Position numbers and translations under genes: made by a program | In this document: piece by piece, positions 1,875-57,235 of the stretch | Position numbering within the stretch: position 1 is the stretch's first letter | Layout of the letters: the number at the start of each line of letters is the position of its first letter | Notes under the pieces: generated by a model | What the model saw: the letters and a program-made list of their open reading frames with translations, nothing else | What the model was told of the DNA's origin: nothing | Databases searched by the model: none | NCBI GenBank assembly: GCA_015680905.1 | Contig: CM027381.1 | Span: forward strand, 89,243,501-89,307,500 | Direction of reading: 5' to 3' | Origin: Coptis chinensis | Lineage: Eukaryota; Streptophyta; Magnoliopsida; Ranunculales; Ranunculaceae | Length of the DNA: 64,000 bases

Positions 1875-3493
1875 TGCTAAGTGCTCAAAAAGTGCAATTT
1901 AACCTTCGATTATGCCTCTTGTTTAGCCATCTTAGTGGACTAATAGTGTTTGTAAGTTATGTTTTATTATTCTACAGGTGAAAAAGAGAGTTTTGTGGAA
2001 TATTAGAGAAAAAGCGGTAAAACGGAGCAATTCGGAGCATTAAAGATCACATGAGAAGCCCATGGACAATCACGGAGAAGGCCAAGGAATTGAAGCTATT
2101 AAAGATGCGACTTGGACCTATTTTAAAGCCTATTTGGAAGCCCAAGGCCAAAAGATTCGCTGCTTGGACCAAAGCCCGCAAAAGAGGATAAAAGGATAGA
2201 GCAAAAGAGGGTAAATAGACTTCCACGCCCGGGGCCGCAAGGATCGTGTGTCCAGACGCAATGCTCGCATCCGAGATGCAAGGATCATGTGTCCGACGCA
2301 TGAAACGACACTGTAGCTACTTCCTTCTTAGTTTTAGAGACGAAGTAGGACTCTGAAAGAAGTTGATTTGTATTAGGAAACAAATGACGGTTTGGAATGC
2401 TTCTAGAACTCATTGTAACCCCTATAAATAGAAGACCTAAATGCCTCATGTAATTTGCCAATTCACTTATACTATGGTCTCTAGAACTTGAGGCAGAGAG
2501 AGATTAATAATAAAATATTCAGTTTTAACTAGTCGAGTCTTAATAAATTAGTCTTTCTAGTCTTATGTTCTTCGACTATTTTTCTTCTCGTTCTTCGTGT
2601 TCTTCCTTCTATATGGAAGACTAATCTTCTTCTTCAAGGGAGGAGATGAAGCCGATGCTTAAGGTTTAATGATTCTTCTGGTTCATGGTGTTCTTCAATC
2701 AGGTTAGTTCTTTATGTTTTTTAGTTATTAGTTCCATTGCCCACACCAGGGGATGGAAGTATAGAATAGGTTTTATGTTTTGCAATATTAATATCATGCT
2801 AGTGTTCTTTACTTTTCTTCTAGTAGTATAGTTCTTTAGAGTTAAGGAAGTATTCTTTGTGTTGCCTTAGAAGGGGTAGCTCAGGGAGTGGCTGCCTAGG
2901 GGAAGTATTCTTTGTGTTTGCCTTAAGTGGTGATTCATTGAATGGCCACCCTATTAGGAAGTACTCCTTGATGTTGCTCTCGGTAATACATTGAATGGCT
3001 GCCCGAGCTTTACATAAAAGGAAAGAAGATATTAATAACATAAACTTAGGAACAATCTTAAGTAGAGTTAATTGTTAATGATGTTTCATCCAAGAGGGCA
3101 TCGACACTCGCTTGATTGCCTAATTGTAGTCTACTTGTAAGAACAACCATGGAGCAGAAAGTCATAGGTCAAAAGTATTGGTGGATTCTAATCTCTTAAA
3201 TTCCCTCTCTTATAAATTCTCAATAGTTTAGATAGTTTAATTAGTTTAGCATTAGAATTTAAAATCTCTACAATCATAGTTTTTAATCCCTCAAACCCCC
3301 TTTCCAGTCCTGTCCTTCACATAACATAACTTAAAAGTGGAACGATACCCTACTAATCCTTTACTTATTGAGGGATAATTAGGTTTTGATATGCTTCTAT
3401 TTTGTTCAACGACCATGATCCATCTACATCATCTATCTACATAATCTACATACCATCTCATATACTATCTAAACACAAAAGGAGTGAGTGTCA
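1875..3493 (+). mobile_element. Solo LTR (Athila-like) nested in integrase of copy A
   Basis: A 1,619-bp LTR beginning TGCTAAGTGCTC and ending GTGAGTGTCA, flanked by a perfect 5-bp target duplication GTGGG (1870-1874 and 3494-3498). The undisturbed relative at about 9985-9998 reads straight across the insertion point. It is the same LTR family as 50517-52125 and 58160-58857, including the ATAAATAGAAGACCTAA segment and the TTCAAGGGAGGAGATGAAGC block. No internal region is left, so it is a solo LTR. Confidence 0.9.
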
Positions 3494-3902: not shown

Positions 3903-5065
3903 CCTTTGATGTTTGATGTACTTTCTTTTATTTCCATATATTGATAAGTGCACCATTATGGTAACCGGGCCTTCCCTTTGGAGTGTGTGGCTGTAAGTAC
4001 CAGATCCTAAGTCCACGTTTAACGTAATTCACGCTTTCCACTATTGCATGTTTTCTCGGTTTTTAAGCCATGTTTCTCTATGGAGTGATTTATTTTTTTA
4101 TTATTTTCTTTTATATTAAACTTTATTCATAAAAAACAAAAAAATATTAAAACCCTATAAACAGTAATCTAATAAGTCTCGGGAATCTGACTTTAAAAGA
4201 CTTATGTTTTAAAACAAATTTTCTAAACATTGTTTTCAAAAATTTGTTTGGTGGTGGGGTGTTTGGTCTTTTCATTCTTGATGACTCAACTTCCTATTCT
4301 TATCCCTTCCTCATCTCGTGGCTAGTTCTTTTAGTTGTATTATGTTTAGGAAATTTCCCTATTTTTAGTAGAATTTGATTCCTAGTTATTTAGTTAAGTA
4401 GTTAATATTGGATTATGTATTTGGTTGTTATTTAAATTTCAAGTTAGTTTAATTTTTGTCCGAGCATGCTATCTATTTTTCATGAATCCCACCTTCCTGA
4501 CTTGTTTGGGGGTGGCGTTATTTGTTTAGCATTGTATTTTACCATATCCACTTGTTTTTGGAAATTAATATTGCAAGGTTTTTTAAATATGGTTTATGTG
4601 AGCATGTTGCTAATGTGGCGTAGCTAGAATTAGCTATTGTTGTTTGGTGTAACCTAAAAGAATAAAGGAATTGAGATTGCTATTTTGATAGGTTGTTAAA
4701 ACCATCTAGAATTGCTACTGAGCATGTGCTCTCAGTTGTTTCTATTTTGGTTTTTATAAGCCTTTTCTTATTCTATCTCTTTCCTTATCAATTAGGGAAC
4801 CTTGAGGACCTTTGTTTGAGAAACTAATGCTCTATAAATACATGGCACACCATATACTTCACACCACACCTCTCAATTTCACCTCTCAATTCATACTAAC
4901 AAACAGTACTCGGAGCGCGCATGCCCTCTCTCTTGCCTTATAACAGAGCGCTCCCGTGTCCAAGGTCCTGGATCGCAGTGTCAGAGTTGAGCACGCACGC
5001 GCCCTTCCATAGGCAATTATGAGCGCGCCCGTTCCCTGACCTCAACACACCTCTAGTTATATTTT

Positions 5066-5815
5066 TTGGGGTTTTCCGCACTCACTTCCAGGAGTTTAGT
5101 AGTGTCTTTGGTTGCTATAAAATCTCCTCAAATTAAACCGGGGCAGTCCTTTAAAGAATTGCTCATGAGTGACACTTATGGGTATTGGTTTCGCGACAGG
5201 ATTGTGCAGTCAAGATGGCAGATTCTACTGGTAAGTGCTGATGACTCTTATTCTCTTGCACTTACTTCTTATTTCTATAATCATTGTAAGTTCTTTTATT
5301 GACCAGATGGGGAACAAGTGTTCTCTGTCGACATTAATGGTAACACAATGGATTTAAACAAGTTTTTGGTAGCCTTTGCGGTTGGGATGGCTATGCCTGC
5401 TTCCCGAAACTCATGGGGCTATATGTTTGATAATATATACCTCTATAACTATGAGTATTTCCAAAAGACTTATGGGGCGGGGATTTTTCGTGTAAAGGAC
5501 CAAGGACAAGATAATGTATCCCTTGGTAGTCTGTCCCTTAACGTAGGCACTATCATGTTCTTTATCATGCTGAATTTCTTAGGGGAATGGCGATTTTCCT
5601 CTGCGGATAACGCCGCTGGTGACGTTTTTCTTGCATTAGTTGAGGGACGTATGCTATATGACATTCCCCAGACCTTAGTGTTCAATTTAGCACAAGCTCA
5701 TAGTATGAATCATAAGTACCTTCTTATGCTTGTCTTGGTTTGCCGCATCATAGTATGTTTCTTTCATTATTTCGCATTCTGTTATATGGATTGGGTTGGG
5801 GTTGACATTATGTGA
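5066..5815 (+). pseudogene. Post-integrase ORF remnant (copy A)
   Basis: Two open stretches encode a protein-like sequence downstream of integrase. They contain YSLALTSYFYNHCKFFY, then DLNKFLVAFAVGMAMPASR, NSWGYMFDNIYLYNYEYF, TIMFFIMLNFL and GRMLYDIPQTLV. The pattern of an aromatic FY pair, a DL-K-LL helix and a later VFLALxEGRMLYDIP block recalls the domain annotated in plants as 'putative plant transposon protein', found in the third ORF of Athila-like elements. That assignment is inferred from memory. A homologue sits at 13354-13941. A TATAAATA at about 4834 lies upstream in both copies. Confidence 0.55.
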
Positions 5816-38385: not shown

Positions 38386-38924
38386 TGTTAGATTTGGATT
38401 AACCTTACAATCGTAGGCAATCAGGGATTGATGGTTTGGATTTGACTGAGTTTGTGTGGACGAACTGCCTACATATCAAGTTCTCTCTACTGAGGGGAGA
38501 CTTGAATCAGGTCAGACATAGTTCCTCCTCTTCTTTATATAGGTGAGGGTGTTTGTGCCTCCTCCTCTCTCGCGTCCGGTCAAGTTCTGGACTTGATGGC
38601 ATTAAAGAGCCATAAAGGCATCTTGTGGTGAAGTAATGGCGTGCGCACCTACAACTCCGATCTTTAAGGTGACAGTCAGGCCATACGTTACTAGCCATTG
38701 GGGTGCTGGCTAATGTGAGCGTTCTGGCCGGATGCTTAACGTTCTGGACGTGGATGTTTTGGGAGCAGAGCGTTCAGGGTGCTGATGAGGTCGCTTAACC
38801 TGTATGAACTTATCATCAGCGACCTGAACGTGTGGATAAGTGTGATCATCCTGGTGTGCTAGACACGTGCTTAATATTCACTGGAAGTGTATATTACTCC
38901 CTCACGCACAGTAGGAGCATAACA
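38386..38924 (-). mobile_element. Possible solo LTR, minus orientation
   Basis: Ends are TGTTAGATTTGG and GAGCATAACA, giving TGTTA/TAACA inverted tips. Read on the minus strand it has a TATATAAAG motif (about 38537) followed by CAAGTCTCCCC and TGTAGGCAGTTCGTCC. This resembles the R/U5 of the Tat LTR at about 59401-59480 (TATATAAATA, then GTACGTAGGCAGCC). No matching target duplication, primer site or polypurine tract was found, so the limits are tentative. Confidence 0.4.
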
Positions 38925-41900
38925 AAGTTTAATGAATATTATGAACACTTGTGAAGTTGTTATCATTCAATTCTTATACTTTGAGGTTATAGGGTGTTTG
39001 CTTTTTCATTAGCTTTTATACTAAAATAATTGTGTGGTATTGTTCAAATTGAAATATCTCAAGCCTAAATTAATCTAAACAAGATTCTTATATTCATTAT
39101 AAAGATGGCCGATTGTAGAACACCTAAGACGATTTATTACCAGTGTTAGTCATAGGGTTGAACAATCTATTGTTGATTCAATCACTATCATTAACTATAA
39201 GCTAGAATATAGTATATGTTGGTAAAAGAGAGTGACTATTTGAGTGGCCAATTTATCCAATTAGAGAGTTTTAACTTTCAAGGAGGTGGTGAGCTAATGC
39301 TAATGGGGGAGGTGGAAGAATAGATGGGTATAATTAATAGGTAATAATATAGCTTTTTAAGAGTGAGTTTATAGTTGTAACAAGGAGAGAATATAATATT
39401 ACCACCGTACCCTAAAATTATTGTTTAATGGTACCAAGAACATAAAATTATACACCCGAATTAGCAACTAATTTGATGTCATTTTAGAGTTGGTCATTAC
39501 ATTTAGGAACTACGAATACATGAAAGATGTAATCTAATTAGAGCATACAATAACAATTAGAACAAGTTTACGCCTTTATTAAATGCCCAAGTCTTATCTC
39601 AAAATTAGGGCTTTAACTATAAATTAGAGTTTGGTCATAAGGGTAAATGTGTCAATATATAAAATATGGATAGGCAACCAATAATTTTGGACCAATCACT
39701 AATAAACGAATAATTGTAAACCAAACACAGATATTGCTATTAAAACTAGGACTAAAAGCTAATTAAATCACCCTATTTTTTTATCTTACATTTCCTCAAA
39801 GTTCATTTAGTCTAGTTCACAAGCACCTAAGAGCAGCTTCAACACCAGCTTGTTATCTTATATATAAAACATATACTGGATTTTCCAATTAGTTTCCGTA
39901 TTCCCGGTTTTAGGCCAAAGTTTTTAATAAAAGGTACCGGAAAGTTGGACAGCTACTTTCTTTTTGCTCTTCACTGAAAGGGTAAATTGGTAAATTTACT
40001 ACTCTATTGGGTTTTGCTTACTAAAATGAAAACTGCCTCGCCAAACAGACACACCGTTTCGGCCTATTTTCCAAATTAAAAAGAGTTACGGTCTTCTCCA
40101 TTTCCACAATTCTCCCACATCTGCAACAGCTTCTCCCATATTGCACATTGATTCACCATGGAATAGGTCACATTACTTTTAAGTTTTTCGTTAACTCATA
40201 TTCGTCATAATCCATTCTATAATTTCGCATATTTTTGATAAAATTTTTGTTTTACTTTTAGTTTGGATTTCGAATTACTATTCCTCTTTCTGCCTCCCCC
40301 TTCAATTCATTACTGTTAACGTTAACGTTAACCTTTCTTCTTAACAGAATCATATCGATCATAGCCTGGCAAAGTGGCAATGCGACTCACTCAGCAAGAA
40401 TTCTCGCCTTTTGCCACTGAAGGTAATGATCTAACCTCAAACTATAACATTAATATTCTTTATATTTTTTTCATTTTTGGTGCCCACTCTATATTAGCAC
40501 GAGATTCTCGCTTAAATTTTTTTCAGTGCATTTTGATGGTATAATTATACTCTCTTCCTAATTTTCCGTTACGAGGAATTAAGACTGAGCGTATACTGCA
40601 CTTTTATTGTTAGTGAAATTGTTGAATCCAGTAAGTCTGATGCATAAGTTCATACTTCAACAATCCAGTTAGTGAAATTGTTGAATCCAGTAAGTCTAAT
40701 TGATCATTCCAAAGGTGTAAAGGTAGATACGTACATTCATATAGAAAAGACAAACTCATGATGCGATGACTGTTTGAGGTTACAAGCAACAGACAAAGTC
40801 TATTTTACTAGAATCATCAGTGGCAATTAGACCTAATATAAATATACACACAAAAGGAAAGAAAATCAAATTCGAATCACTATGGTCCCATCCAGGCTTA
40901 CCCAATTTGCTAATGATCTGCTTATCATAAACTATTCAATAGTAGGTGTATCAGCACAAGTAAATGATACTTGAACTTTCTCTATGTCAAGGATTCTGTG
41001 TTGAAGTGTGGACTCTTCGTCTTCTTTTTCAGACAGCTGACATGTAAGTTATCAAGTTTGGTCCATTTTTTTCATATATTTTTTACTTTTAGTTTCATTG
41101 ATACATGTTGATTGCTAAGCCTTTTTTCAACTATTATTGTGATTGGTAACATGTGTGAACCTATTATATCATAATCTATAAATTAGTTCAATACTGTTCC
41201 AACTTACAGTGTGCCCTTATCAAGTTTCTAATGTGGTGTGGAGCCTTTCCTTATTGTACATTCTCTGGATATCGAATTTTTTTTTACAGAAGGTGTTCAA
41301 TGATTTGGGGTGTTGATGGTTTACTCTCTTCCTAAATCATGTTGTCATTATCGGAGACAGCCATTTATCAATAGTTTTGGTACCAATCAATTTTAAATAG
41401 TGGTTACCGTCATATGAACATCTTTTTCTAAGGTTTGACACAATTATGGCGACCCTATTATTGCTTCATATACTTGACTGTTTCATAATAACTCTTCCTT
41501 TAATTATTTATTTCTTTGGCTTTTTTTGTCTCTCCATTTTCTTGGTCAAATGGAGATTCTTCATTGTATCTCACGACTTTTCTATGTCGTCTTTGATGTT
41601 TTTATTATTACTTTGTGAGTGTAATGACTTTGTCATACATAGGCTGCTTAGAGAAATACTATGTCGCAATGTAAGACAGTGATCAAGTGGTGTCAACGTG
41701 TCTTGCTCCGTACATATTGTATAACAGCTGCATCGCAAAATGGCAAAATGCTTAGGTGTTTTATTGTCATTTTCATCTCACATTTTAGTCTTAATAAGTA
41801 TTTTCCCTTTCCATATTTTTGTTATCCAGTCCCAAGTAGGGATTATTCTCCACGAATAAACTCCATAAAGCAGTGGAGTTATTTGCTTCCTTATTAATGC

Positions 41901-43279
41901 ACGCGAATAAAACTCTTCAATACTATTCTCTGCTTTTAATTTCTAGGCAAATGCCAAAATGGTCTTCTTCGTCTTCAGATTCAGGTTTTACTCCCTTTTA
42001 AATTTTATTCCTTTTTCCCCATTTATTTGTTGCTAATTAATGCTGCCCGCAACAGTAAATGTATTTACTCCAAGGCGACTACATTGTGGGTTTCGCATAA
42101 TTTCTATTTGGTACTGTTTTCTTGCCTTTTGCAATACTTATTTCTGTTTTGATTATTCATTTGAATTGGATTGTAAAATTCCATAATAGTTCACCTCAAT
42201 CAAGGCTTTCAACAGACAGTTTCCGCTCAAACTCGCTGGTATGTTATATTGTCCCTTCTACATAGAAGAACTTCTATAGTATTTCTATACTATATAAATA
42301 CCCTTTCGTTTTTCCTCAACTTTGGATATAATCAATATTATGGTTCCTTTCTAAACAATCCATGAATCTCTTTTTGGGTTTTCCACTATCCATCATTGGA
42401 CGCAACTTTCCTCCTAGAGTGTGCGAATAATGGAGTATAGCACTCTGTTGCTATAAATCATTTTATATTGTAATACAATCCCCTTTTACCCAATAATATT
42501 GTAAGTGTTCGCCTAAATTGGTGTCTCTTCATTTGTAGGTTTCAAAGAGGAAATATTTTGTTTGCCTAAATCTTGAGCAAGACGCACGCAAACAAGAGAG
42601 GTGAAAAAGGCTTTAATTTACAGGTCTCAAAAGCTTTTCGTTGTACAATGCTTACAAGTAAATCTCGATTTAAGTTTAAATTTACAGTTTTTTGTGATAC
42701 AATACTTCAAAATTGTTGATAACTTCACTAATCTACAACATTTACATCAATTTAGATGCCATGTTATACAATTGTGGTAGAAGATAGTTCTGGAATTTAA
42801 TTATGTATAATTCACATTTGGTTGTTGTCAAACCAAAAAACAACGGTTTTAAATTCATTATAGTATTTTGCACTTAAGTTATGTTCTCACTTATTTAATC
42901 CTAAGTGCATCCTTTGGGCAATCAAGGCTTCATTGTGTAAAAAATTAGAAATAAACCAACAATACACCCTCTTTCAGTGAGGCCAAGTAATTCTTAGGCA
43001 ATTCCTGATGGGTCAGATCAATAGTAGCATCATCGGTTTTCCATTTAATTTAATTTTAGATCATAATATTTACTTAGTAGATTAGACTACAAAACCTCCT
43101 TTGATGGTTGATGTTCTTTAAGTACGTATTATCTGTGCTGTGGTACCATTTGGATGGATAACAAAAAAGTTACTGTTGTATTATTGTTGTATGTCAATTC
43201 TATTAATAAAAGTGGTTCAATGGTTCATTTGATTTAATACTGACCCTTTTCATTTGTTGCACAACTTATCAATACATAG
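38925..43279. other. Intergenic DNA with a few exon-like words
   Basis: No gene could be established. Short segments bounded by plausible splice signals occur at about 40381-40422, 41946-41983, 42192-42238 and 42541-42610, after a pyrimidine-rich region near 40090-40150 that looks like a 5' UTR. Their translations match no family known to me in any phase. A 28-bp sequence, TTAGTGAAATTGTTGAATCC plus AGTAAGTC, is repeated directly (40610 and 40668). Confidence 0.3.
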
Positions 43280-44060
43280 ACATAGGAATACAAACAAGTA
43301 CTTGAATGTTACCTGGGGGACATTGGAAGCTAGGTGGCAAATGTCATTGATATCTAAAACCCCGCCACTTGAAGAGGAGTTTAGCGAATGGGTACAGGCA
43401 ATGAAGCATGCTGGGGTACGGATGCCAACCCACAAACAGTTACTGGGATTTTATTTATTCATCTGCAACTGTGAACGCCTCAGGAGGGAGATGGATGTGG
43501 CAGAAGCGAGCTGAATAGGGAAGAAGTGGAGAGAATCAAGGCAAGGCTCCAGGAACTAGAGCTTCTAGGCAGACAAAGGGAAAAGACCTTAAGGCTGTGA
43601 GATTAGTAGAGATGAACAAGAAAAACAGGGACGAAAACTTCAAGAATGCCTCTGAAAAGAAACCAGTTAACACAAGTTTTAAAGCTGGTGAAGAAGGATA
43701 TGATCCATTCTCCAGAAGATGGACAAAGTCAAGAAATTATTTTGTATCAAACTCTGTCACAGGAGATTCCAAAAATGGGCATGTTGCTATTGAATCATTA
43801 GAATCAGGTGGAGGCAATGGGGCAGCAGGAGTAGCGGGGACAACTAATGTGGTTGTCTTCCCATCAACAGCAATAGCAACTGGTGCTCGAAGGTTGGTAG
43901 ATACAAAGGCCCATGTTGATCAAGGTACAATGTCAAACTCATTGCACAACTTTAATCTGCCAATCTCACTTGCAGTGTTGAAGGATTTTGGAAGACCCGA
44001 TGGATTCCATTTGGGATTTATGGCAAGGAAACAAAGTATAGAGGCATCAATTGGATGCAA
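43280..44060 (+). pseudogene. RTF1/VIP5 (Paf1 complex) gene fragment
   Basis: The translation matches the middle and late part of plant RTF1 (VIP5), a transcription-elongation factor of the Paf1 complex. The end of the Plus-3 domain is seen as KYLNVTWG, ARWQMSLISKTPPLEEEF and EWVQAMKHAGVRMP. A remnant of the FxYSSATV helix follows, then ERLRREMDVAEA, EEVERIKARLQELE, VRLVEMNKKNRDENFKNASE, PVNTSFKAGEEGYDPFSRRW, an Ala/Gly-rich linker and NLPISLAVLKDFG..GFMARKQSIEASIGC. At least three frame changes and a deletion in the helical region (about 43440-43470) break it. Both ends of the gene are missing. There is no poly(A), so it is not a simple processed copy. Confidence 0.85.
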
Positions 44061-44104
44061 TATTAGAATTTTTTATACCAGACCAACAATTTTGTTTTTT
44101 TATT

Positions 44105-44403
44105 AAGAACACACTAGAATTTTCCCAGTACATCAGTCTGTATTTTGCCCTTATTGAAGTTGTCATTGCACCTGACTTGAAGTCATCTAATAGTGAAGAT
44201 AAATATCTTGGTTTGACAAATTCTGCCACTTATGGAAATGTTACTAATCATTTATTTTCCATTGAATTAGACACCGCAAAGCAAGAGTTTGACCCAGACA
44301 ATAACCATATATATATAATTCCTCTTTCAAACTCTCTGTCAAACAATACTGCTCTTCCCACTAATCAAATAATGAGGGAGTTGAGTAGCCTAACTAGCTA
44401 ATT
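44105..44403 (+). pseudogene. Legume-lectin-domain fragment (L-type lectin kinase-like)
   Basis: It starts about 45 bp after the RTF1 fragment. The translation shows FSQYISLYFALI, VVIAPDLKSS, KYLGLTNSATYGNVTNHLFS, IELDTAKQEFDPDNNHI and LSNSLSNN. These are the beta-strands and the metal-binding region (E-D-T ... D-x-N-x-H) of plant L-type lectin domains, as in lectin receptor kinases. The GHG loop between FALI and VVIAPDL is absent. No signal peptide, transmembrane segment or kinase follows. It is a gene fragment and not a working gene. Confidence 0.8.
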
Positions 44404-46104
44404 AAAGTGTGCGTCGCTTAACATGCATATTCTTTAAGCAAAAATTATTAATATGGACTCAGTATATAAGCATTGAATGAGTATTTGATTAAAATAGACT
44501 AAGGTCACTAACCTACACATCCTAAGAAAGTAGTGGAGTCATTCCAAAAATTAAAGTTGTTGCCACTTGACAAACTGTTTCTATAATCATTTAGGCATAG
44601 CATAATGAGTATGCACAATGGATCACAATTTTAATACCTCTGCACTCCTTCACTAAGCACCCATTGCTAACTACTCATTACACTTAATTTGACTCTCAAA
44701 GAACCAATATTCCATTGCATTATGTTAATCAAGTGGAAGCCCGAAACCAATGCATGTGGAGTTGGGTGCTAATAACATTTTCAGATTGGGGGCGAGTAAC
44801 CAATGCAAGAAATGATTAAAGGACTATGTGACTAATGACAAGGTGAAACAGATGTAATTCAACGATGCGACTAGCATCCATAATTTCTTCCTTTTGTCAC
44901 CTCCATACAGATGATTTGAAAAAATCATCACTCCATCACTCTATCATTTGAATCATTCAATCTCCATACACATGAAATAAGATCCACATTATATTGAAAG
45001 CTTTTAACTGGTAATCTTGCGACATATATGTCTTCCGAAAATCTTTTATTTACACATTCAATTCACTCCACATATTATTTCCGACTTAATAGATCTATAG
45101 AACAAAATATTAACAGTGTCCAATGTATTTTTTTCTAATTGTTTATCAATGTGATCGTTTCTAAATATAAAAAAAAATGGCATTTCTTAGCTAGTTTACA
45201 ATTTCTTTCTCTGTCCAAAGTCCAAACTATCTGTTTATATAAGCCGACTAAAAAAGAGAGCGAATGGATTCGCTAGATCATATTGAAGGCAATGATAAAA
45301 AAAAAAAAGGTTATTCTGCTTACATTTTTTTAAAGATATTTTATTCTCCATTGTAGAATAGCAATTATGTTGCACACTATGATATAATATTCTTATATCT
45401 TACAGGCGGTACACTCATATGAATCCAACAATGTTTCTCAATCACATATAAATGCTTGACAAGATAATTACACAACTAGCAACACAAATGTTAACTTCAT
45501 CAACATATATAATAGCTATTTTTTTGGTAAATTAGTTTGTGGCATATGCACTAATAATTATATATTGACTAAATTACAGACGGTTAAATACCTCTTTGAA
45601 TATATTTATTCACAACATGGAAGAGCAACAAAAATCAAATTGAACGACGAACACAACTAACGTATTGAAGTGTTTTTTTTTTTATATTTTTCTTTAAAAG
45701 AAAAACCTAATATGAGTTTTGTCAGACCTCAACCTGTATTAATCTAAAACATGTTACATAATCCATTCAAACAAATGTAATATGTTACTATTCTAATTTA
45801 CATACATTTGTTCCTTTAATTTTCTCCACCCCCATTTTCTTTCCTAGCACGTGCAACACACATTTCCGTTTACTAATATCTTTTAGTATGATGATATGAT
45901 ATACACCACCTATGAAACTGAGAATGTACAATTGCTAAATGGACCTTTTTTCTCAAATGATAGCTAGGCCCAACCACTTGCACCCGTAAGGCAGTAATCC
46001 CTACAAAAAAAAAAAAAAATCAGTCATCACATGCCACACCCAAAAGTAAGTGGGTGAGCAACATCTCCTTAAATTCTTGGTTAGTCATGCCCTCTTTGTT
46101 AATT
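44404..46104. other. Gene-free AT-rich intergenic DNA
   Basis: No gene is seen. There are several poly-A/T runs, and no clear transposon ends were recognised up to the presumed left end of the MULE near 46105. Confidence 0.45.
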
Positions 46105-52125: not shown

Positions 52126-52745
52126 CACAAAACTGATCTTTCGACAACATGCTTACTTCCTGTAGACATTTTCGCTCGATCTACTAGAATTCCTTCCAGC
52201 AGTATCCCTTCCTTTACCATGAAGTGACACTTTTCCCAGTTCAGAACTAAGTTGGTATCGCAACAACGTTTAAGGACTAAGGAGAGATGATGCAGACAAT
52301 CCTCAAAAAGACATGTGAATGTCTTTTCTTGGTCCTCAGGGTGAATATGGATCTGAAAGTATCCTGAGTAACCATCAAGAAAGCAGTAGTAAGCTTGTCC
52401 AGCTAATCTTTCTAATATCTTATCAATGAAAGGCAATGGAAAATGATCTTTCCTCGATGCGCTATTCAACTTCTTGTAATCGATGCAAACTCTCCATCCA
52501 GTCTGAATCCTGGTTGGAATTAACTCATTGTTTTCATTCTCGATTACTATGGTTCCAGACTTCTTTGGCACATCTTGAACTGGACTAACCCATTGACTAT
52601 CAGAAATAGGGTAGATAATGCTGGCATCAAGGAGTTTGACGTCCTCTTCTCGAACTACTTCCTTCATCTTCGGATTAAGCCTCCTCTGTGGTTGCTTAGA
52701 AGTATTGGAATCCTCTTCCAAATGAATCCTATGTTGAACTATCAT
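52104..52745 (-). pseudogene. Reverse transcriptase remnant (minus orientation)
   Basis: Fossil RT of Ty3/gypsy type. It has HRIHLEEDSNTSKQPQRRLNP, WVSPVQDVPKKSG, GWRVCIDYKKLNSASRKDHF, LPFIDKILERLAGQAYYCFL, DGYSGYFQIHIHPEDQEKT and LVLNWEKCHFMVKEGILL. It reads opposite to the LTRs and to the RNase H-integrase part. Confidence 0.85.
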
Positions 52746-55900: not shown

Positions 55901-57235
55901 AAGCGGAAAATTGGGGTAAGTTACCTACACACCTTAAAGATTACATTTTATGTCTTCTTTGAACCTGTTACTCTGTCTAGTTTAAGTTTTTGCATGAAGA
56001 ATCCAAGCATCGTAAGTTTGACTCCTTAGGATCTCATTAGTATAAGTGCTACTTGATAGCCGGCCCCCGATTTTCATAACTTTATCATTTATCTTGAGGA
56101 GGAGTTGCAAAGCGGAGTCAATGTCTCATAACTCTAGTAGACCGAGTATAAAATGTCTATGGGAAGTAAGCATGTTGTTGAGATATCAGTTTTGGAGTAG
56201 GAATTCTAGTCTTGAGGATCTGACTTTAAAAGACTCACATTACGTCTTAGGGATCTGACGTAAAAAGACCTAAAAATTTGTTTCTTGAACTAATTCTGAT
56301 ATTCGGCATCAATGGTAATATCCTACCTTTTTTCTCATCCATTTCATTTACTTCTTTATACATTGAGGTCAATGCATGCATAAGTAGGGGGAGGGTGTAC
56401 TTGAGGAATGAATTTCGAAAATTAGTTTTCAAAAACAAAAATATTTTTGTTTCTATATCAGTAGCATGAGAAAAATGAATTTTAATGATGAGTCTGGGAT
56501 ACAGATTCTATACTGCTTAATGTGAGTTTGATAGATAGTTGATATTATTGATTTCATTACCGCTTAGACTATTTATTATGCTCGGACATAGTTCTTATTG
56601 ATAGAATTCTTTATCAAGGCACCACCATAATACTTGGTCAGTTTTGTGTACTTTTGCTAGAAGAGAGATTTAAACCCCTAGTAAACTGGAAGTAGAATTT
56701 TTAGACTTAGCCCGTGAGACTTGAGCTTTATACTCATTCTTTGGAGAGTTCTTACGAAAAATCTGAGTCTTAGTGACTCATCATCTTTTAGTTCTTTTTG
56801 TCGTTGTAATATAGTCTCATTATTCGTTGATTTGGTTAATCACGAAGTGACATCAACTGGGGAGATAGCCATTAGGTCTTGTAGTCTATTCAAAACAGAG
56901 TATCATACTAATAAGTCAAGTAGTGAACCCATTCAGCCTTTATCCCACCTAGTAGGACCATCATGTTAAACCCTTTTGAGCCTTACAATAAGCCATTTTC
57001 TTTCATAAAACCCTTTACCCATCACCCAACTCCAGACAAGGAGTATAGCCAAAATCTTTATCAGCCATACCCATATGTTTCGAGAATCGAGGGGGGCAAG
57101 GAGGAAGAAAGACCACAAAAGGAAGATTACAAGGAAATATCAGAGAGATACAATGAAGTCCATCATTCTGTTCAAAGTGAAAGAAGCTAGTGTAAAACAA
57201 GCATATCCAGTACTAATCAAGGATATACCACTGAG

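Follow-up and report, generated by a model that had tools for sequence, protein, structure and literature searches.

Introduction

Plant transposons that carry fragments of host genes include Pack-MULEs, which have long terminal inverted repeats and 9-bp target duplications, and Helitrons. The established features of Helitrons are TC and CTRR ends, a 3′ palindrome and insertion between A and T (PMC3288121, PMC4778049), and for maize it has been reported that a single element can capture several gene fragments in a stepwise manner (Dong et al. 2011, PMC3288121). As regards the 3′ hairpin, the report on the bat element Helraiser describes that removal of the hairpin left movement at 8.8% of the normal rate (Grabundzija et al. 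2016, PMC4778049), and a comparison of maize and rice presents little evidence that the hairpin matters for capture (PMC2575219). We found no paper on the capture of RTF1/VIP5 in the literature searched.

Here we describe a locus of Coptis chinensis at which pieces of two host genes, RTF1 (VIP5) and a lectin receptor kinase, lie close together. In our assessment, to which we assign a probability of roughly 0.93, both form the inside of an old, decayed, non-autonomous Helitron that occupies positions 39856-45876 of the window (the whole 64,000-nucleotide stretch of DNA that was analysed) and that gained them by capture.

Results

The genome searched comprises 935.6 Mb in 116 contigs, with the window on contig C5, and all features of the Helitron described below are on the + strand. 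An initial annotation of this DNA had recognised internal fragments of RTF1/VIP5 and of a lectin domain in the region 43280-44403, and both are real far beyond chance. The RTF1 piece (43286-44060), which covers the end of the Plus-3 domain and most of the C-terminal part, was delimited by alignment to an intact, intronless RTF1 gene on C1 (C1:20440893-20441953; stop-to-stop frame of 653 codons), with which it shares 93.7% identity over 590 alignment columns and 91.9% over 161. In a Pfam scan of the open pieces of the region with curated cut-offs, its first part matched Plus-3 (PF03126; window 43233-43511, E 1.1e-7), although only over the last 42 of the 109 profile positions. The longer frame at 43519-44103 gave no Pfam match over the curated cut-off, and its identity as RTF1 is given by the DNA match to the parent gene. 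The piece corresponds to positions 4442-5308 of the parent locus, where the frame runs from an ATG at 3450 to a stop ending at 5396, and is thus internal and without the gene ends, as annotated. The C1 gene is likely to be the parent of the captured piece: it shares 95.0% identity with the window across a core of about 360 bases, compared to 78.0% for a second, more distant RTF1-like gene on C2. At five positions (4756, 4757, 4929, 4952 and 4955) the majority base of all five lineages of RTF1-carrying elements (see below) is that of the second RTF1 gene and not that of the C1 parent, and since the majority bases agree with the second gene the C1 parent was probably altered after the piece or pieces had left it.

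Relative to the parent, the window RTF1 piece has a 29-bp deletion and a 64-bp deletion, which together remove 93 bp, and two 1-bp deletions, so that it contains four frame-breaking indels but no stop in the parent's frame. The coding sequence was broken in all 20 RTF1 fragments that were compared with the parent frame: in 19 by at least one indel whose length is not divisible by three, and in L026 by two in-frame stops. The longest stop-to-stop frame in the window Helitron, of 195 amino acids, is derived from RTF1. Overall, both the RTF1 and the lectin piece appear to be decayed passengers that have no role in coding.

The second piece (44160-44310) comes from an L-type lectin receptor kinase gene, where it corresponds to about 50 codons of the lectin domain, and was identified by DNA match and by Pfam (Lectin_legB, PF00139; window 44042-44398, E 8.6e-12). 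Its best match, 89% over 151 bp (E 1.5e-49), was to C9:79762937-79763090, which lies in an L-type lectin receptor kinase locus (L039). A genome search with 44140-44403 returned seven matches, namely the three copies of the lineage of the window, this one receptor kinase locus and three that reach only the last 31 bases. The lectin and kinase parts of L039 are read in two frames and the locus may itself be damaged, and for this reason we regard it as the closest relative found, a likely rather than a proven donor. Likely parents of both pieces were found in the same genome, the RTF1 gene on C1 and the lectin locus on C9.

The two pieces had been annotated as 45 bp apart; this distance has to be corrected to 99 bp (44061-44159, between 44060 and 44160), and the spacer consists mostly of Helitron sequence. 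From 44061 to at least 44147 it is Helitron backbone, which in many elements without a listed neighbouring RTF1 piece, for example L048, adjoins the 3′ half of the Helitron, and window 44045-44147 lies beside the 3′ half in elements such as L048 with 81% identity. Positions 44148-44159 are also present in L047, an element on C114. Beyond the lectin piece, the segment 44373-44571 aligned at 93% to elements on C114 and C4 that are devoid of nearly all of the lectin piece; in L047, however, 34 bases at the place of the lectin piece may include a remnant of it, which would indicate loss instead of primary absence.

As the initial annotation had allowed, the carrier is larger than the region with the gene fragments, extending beyond it by 3.4 kb on the upstream side and by 1.5 kb on the downstream side. 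It measures 6,021 bp (39856-45876), is delimited by family boundaries at both ends and lies between an A (39855) and a T (45877). The 5′ terminus (39856-39876), TCTTATATATAAAACATATAC, is preceded by A, and L043 and L028 begin in a similar way; in the window, TTA is followed by TCTTATATATAAAAC, with the TC of a Helitron 5′ end. An upstream search had placed the beginning of relatives near 39853-39858. The boundaries were assessed with 220-base queries that included 80 bases of flank. For the 5′ boundary (best 40 of 355 first-look candidates scored), all 39 scored non-self matches started at query positions 69-80 (window 39855 being query position 80), and 33 of these starts fell within 78-80. 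For the 3′ boundary (best 40 of 392 first-look candidates scored), 36 of 40 scored non-self matches stopped at query positions 137-149, where 140 is window 45876; the remaining four stopped early, at 116-125, and none later. The Helitron family is large, and these counts describe its best-scoring part only.

At the 3′ end, 14 of 20 loci aligned downstream end together with the window near 45876, and most aligned ends consist of the hairpin, CCCGTTTACTAG, a T and then differing sequence. L021 and L027 have flanks that are alike, which probably reflects a duplicated place. The CTRR terminus is CTAA in the window (45873-45876, followed by T), CTAG in 13 of the 15 aligned ends and CTGG in L012, and the next base is T in all 15; four shorter relatives (L049-L052) likewise all end in CTAG followed by T. 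The hairpin of the family, at the distance of 10-12 bp from the 3′ end that is typical of Helitrons and as folded from the sequence of L011 and L013, has an 8-bp stem and a 3-base loop (AAC) with a free energy of -9.8 kcal/mol (z -3.8). Folding and the family alignment indicate that the window retains a decayed version of it at 45847-45865 (-1.2 kcal/mol, z -0.3), and it is missing in L009 and L010. Alignment of the copies thus revealed the shared ends that had been anticipated for a Helitron, namely TC...CTRR and a family hairpin, together with an A/T target.

The 5′ half of an insertion site is illustrated by L028, which reads ATTA/TCTTATATA (the slash marks the point of insertion), and the uninterrupted L023, which reads ATTATAAATA, i.e. 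ATTA/T; the 3′ half of this site was not seen. In the absence of the element the site in the window would read TTGTTA/TATCTTTT. When the joined flanks of the window were searched against the same genome no whole empty site was found: apart from the window there were 28 matches, all within query positions 1-88, and the repeat behind them stops 62 bases short of the boundary. The flanking sequence immediately beside the ends of the window element is thus not shared. A repeat of about 860 bp, with at least 23 other scored copies, lies just outside the 5′ side of the Helitron (window 38910-39765). No terminal inverted repeats were detected around the Helitron at E 1e-3 or better. Both termini were also found on one strand and less than 20 kb apart at, for example, C2:86957825-86964052, C2:91324134-91331736, C8:83465184-83472090 and C4:21100902-21118257, and the element on C8, of which L019 is a part, carries RTF1. 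Two candidate 5′ ends were rejected. One, at 42284 (TCTATACTATATAAA), had no counterpart at up to 2 substitutions in any of the 20 loci that were scanned together with the window, and the sequence of the C2 copy runs on past this point; the other, the apparent start of lineage B at L018:1165, is not a Helitron end. The L019 element, of lineage B, has its 5′-end match further up, at C8:83472090.

Within the carrier, a stretch of about 650 bp (40612-41260) is missing from several relatives, which jump from 40611 to 41261, and is probably a nested insert; C3:21310426-21311982 passes from one position to the other with 16 bases between. A repeat of about this length in the Helitron (40606-41266) also matches alone at C5:87285784-87286465 and C3:111778684. 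The following part (41261-42429) is Helitron sequence, and in the four shorter relatives its last position, 42429, is joined directly to 45163, so that the whole cargo region is skipped. The first part of these relatives differs from that of the window. Upstream of about position 510 they contain an exon-like stretch in place of the first 255 bp of the window element, which is perhaps another captured gene piece. The 3′ half of the backbone (44549-45876) is common to many elements for which no adjacent RTF1 match was listed (best 40 of 588 first-look candidates scored). The window Helitron shows no transposase frame, and no RepHel protein could be linked to precisely these termini; Helitron_like_N is abundant genome-wide (best 150 of 2000 first-look candidates scored), and sources of the enzyme therefore exist.

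A genome search with 43280-44403 (best 40 of 177 first-look candidates scored) yielded 52 matches, the window's own among them. The full 1,124-bp RTF1-lectin stretch was recovered at C2:91949659-91950790 (92%) and C3:81288810-81289932 (89%). Twenty stretches of 9.9 kb each around copies were taken for comparison, and five lineages were distinguished: W (the window, L009 at C2:91945700-91955600 and L010 at C3:81284000-81293900), A (L011-L014), B (L018-L022, L025 and L027), C (L023, L024, L026 and L028) and D (L016 and L017). A tree of the shared core resolved each of A, B, C and D as one group with support of at least 100/98, with W supported at 86/88 and C and D together at 100/99. The left parts of the lineages differ, and the elements are therefore mosaics. 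The 5′ end of the window element was not seen in the DNA compared for the other two lectin copies, of which the one on C2 could be traced to window position 40311 and that on C3 only to 42689. An interval of about 12.5 kb (C2:91951173-91963665) interrupts the C2 copy, with a 5-base overlap (window 42906-42910), as insertion of an LTR retrotransposon with a 5-bp duplication would give.

The distribution of deletions and passengers among the lineages bears on the history of the two pieces. The 29-bp deletion (parent position 4605) was present in all 14 compared copies of lineages W, A and B, and the 64-bp deletion (parent position 4658) in 13 of them, whereas in L010 it lies inside an 82-bp deletion. 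Given these common deletions, W, A and B most likely descend from one RTF1 capture that was inherited. The lectin piece was found in only two of the 20 compared loci (L009 and L010). It was present in none of the 11 copies of lineages A and B, all of which carry the RTF1 piece with the same two deletions, and the pieces therefore arrived separately. The simplest reading of the distribution, though not a proof, is that lectin arrived after RTF1.

At the 3′ junction of the RTF1 piece, L048 reads ATTGGAAGCAATATTA where RTF1 reads ATTGGATGCAA; this short likeness may have helped capture, or it may be a remnant of RTF1. L009 and L010 are without exactly the same 3′ hairpin (CTAG is joined to CCCGTTTACTAG) and their flanks differ, so that either an element that had already lost its hairpin moved, or loss of the palindrome occurred on two occasions. 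In the former case an element without a hairpin may have transposed and yet ended exactly at CTAG, and the two copies fit either view of the role of the hairpin.

The initial annotation had named both Helitrons and Pack-MULEs as possible agents of the capture, and the results separate the two: the Helitron is borne out by both of its ends, and the Pack-MULE is not, as no inverted repeats at E 1e-3 or better enclose the pieces and the boundaries are those of a Helitron. A Pack-MULE with terminal inverted repeats, perhaps the putative MULE that had been placed nearby, would be a natural carrier in so far as such elements are described as capturing gene pieces in plants (PMC13317346). However, the putative MULE starts at about 46.1 kb, outside the Helitron, and the best inverted matches to the 60 bases from 46114 were only 19-24 columns long. 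No inverted-repeat pair that encloses the RTF1 and lectin pieces was found in 37000-64000 at E 1e-3; the only pair in this interval at E 1e-3 or better, 52128-52191 with 56130-56194, lies downstream. We consequently regard a Pack-MULE as very improbable. That pair (65 bp, 85% alike, 4 kb apart) could represent the ends of another transposon. Still less probable, to the point of being almost negligible, is that two neighbouring host genes decayed separately and that the region was later duplicated. Both pieces are indeed pseudogene-like and on one strand, as decayed neighbours might be, but RTF1 pieces with identical deletions lie at many unrelated places with Helitron sequence after them, and the copies share sharp ends and not flanks (with the exception of L021 and L027). 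Moreover, the same RTF1-lectin junction at C2 and C3 goes against the annotation's own alternative, in which no other copy would have it.

Capture by a Helitron leaves room for a refinement, in which RTF1 was captured more than once and lineages C and D represent an independent capture of the same gene; we rate its chances as slightly below even. Lineages C and D group together in a single clade that is separate from W, A and B, contain a shorter RTF1 piece with a common left junction (near parent position 4744) and do not have the base that is common to W, A and B (by majority) at parent position 4931. However, the pieces in C and D fall outside the region of the shared deletions, so that a single capture followed by truncation fits too, and in L023, alone among the six C and D loci, the RTF1 piece is followed after 1.6 kb by the same 3′ half and 3′ end in the same orientation, so that lineage C may belong to the same element family. 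The 3′ half of the Helitron was not found in the other five C and D loci.

Discussion

The history that best accounts for this locus begins with a Helitron of this family that, long ago, copied an internal stretch of the intronless RTF1 (VIP5) gene into its body. The passenger then lost 29 and 64 bp, and descendants with both deletions spread to many places and became several subfamilies. In the lineage of the window, a second and separate event added the 150-bp piece of a lectin receptor kinase 99 bp further on, and this RTF1-lectin version is present at three places; we infer this order of the two events. Transposition would have occurred in trans, by RepHel proteins of other elements, and the capture step would have been copying or template switching within the element while it transposed or was repaired. 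Both passengers are followed on their 3′ side by common backbone, over more than 1.3 kb, whereas simple read-through would place the cargo at the 3′ end, and from this we infer internal capture, in which a gene would be copied into the element at a break or replication gap. It is conceivable but unlikely that Helitrons took the same RTF1 stretch at least twice and that it was kept through five lineages with its RNA feeding back on the parent VIP5 gene, by small RNAs or antisense.

The capture of gene fragments by Helitrons in plants is already well known, and the general picture of Helitrons is unchanged by our results. The analysis demonstrates the termini and the A/T target of the element, the loci that are the likely parents, junctions and deletions that are shared among copies, and the separate distributions of the two pieces; new for this case are both ends of the carrier, the likely parents, the sister copies and a probable order of events. 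Importantly, related elements with and without each passenger provide a test set for internal capture versus 3′ read-through and for the need for a 3′ hairpin.

Like Pack-MULEs as described (PMC13317346), the element is a plant transposon that carries fragments of host genes, but unlike in Pack-MULEs no inverted repeats enclose the pieces. With Helraiser/Helibat of bats, in the account of Grabundzija et al. (2016, PMC4778049), it has in common the hairpin near the 3′ end, insertion at A/T and the spread of captured pieces; however, the capture demonstrated for Helraiser in that account is 3′ read-through, whereas here the pieces are internal with backbone after them. In comparison to the maize Helitrons described by Dong et al. 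(PMC3288121) the parents differ, being RTF1 and a lectin receptor kinase here, and the likeness is one of features, and the element described here is known from its DNA. In these features, namely TC/CTRR ends, a 3′ palindrome, an A/T target and several successively gained fragments of host genes, the element resembles those maize Helitrons.
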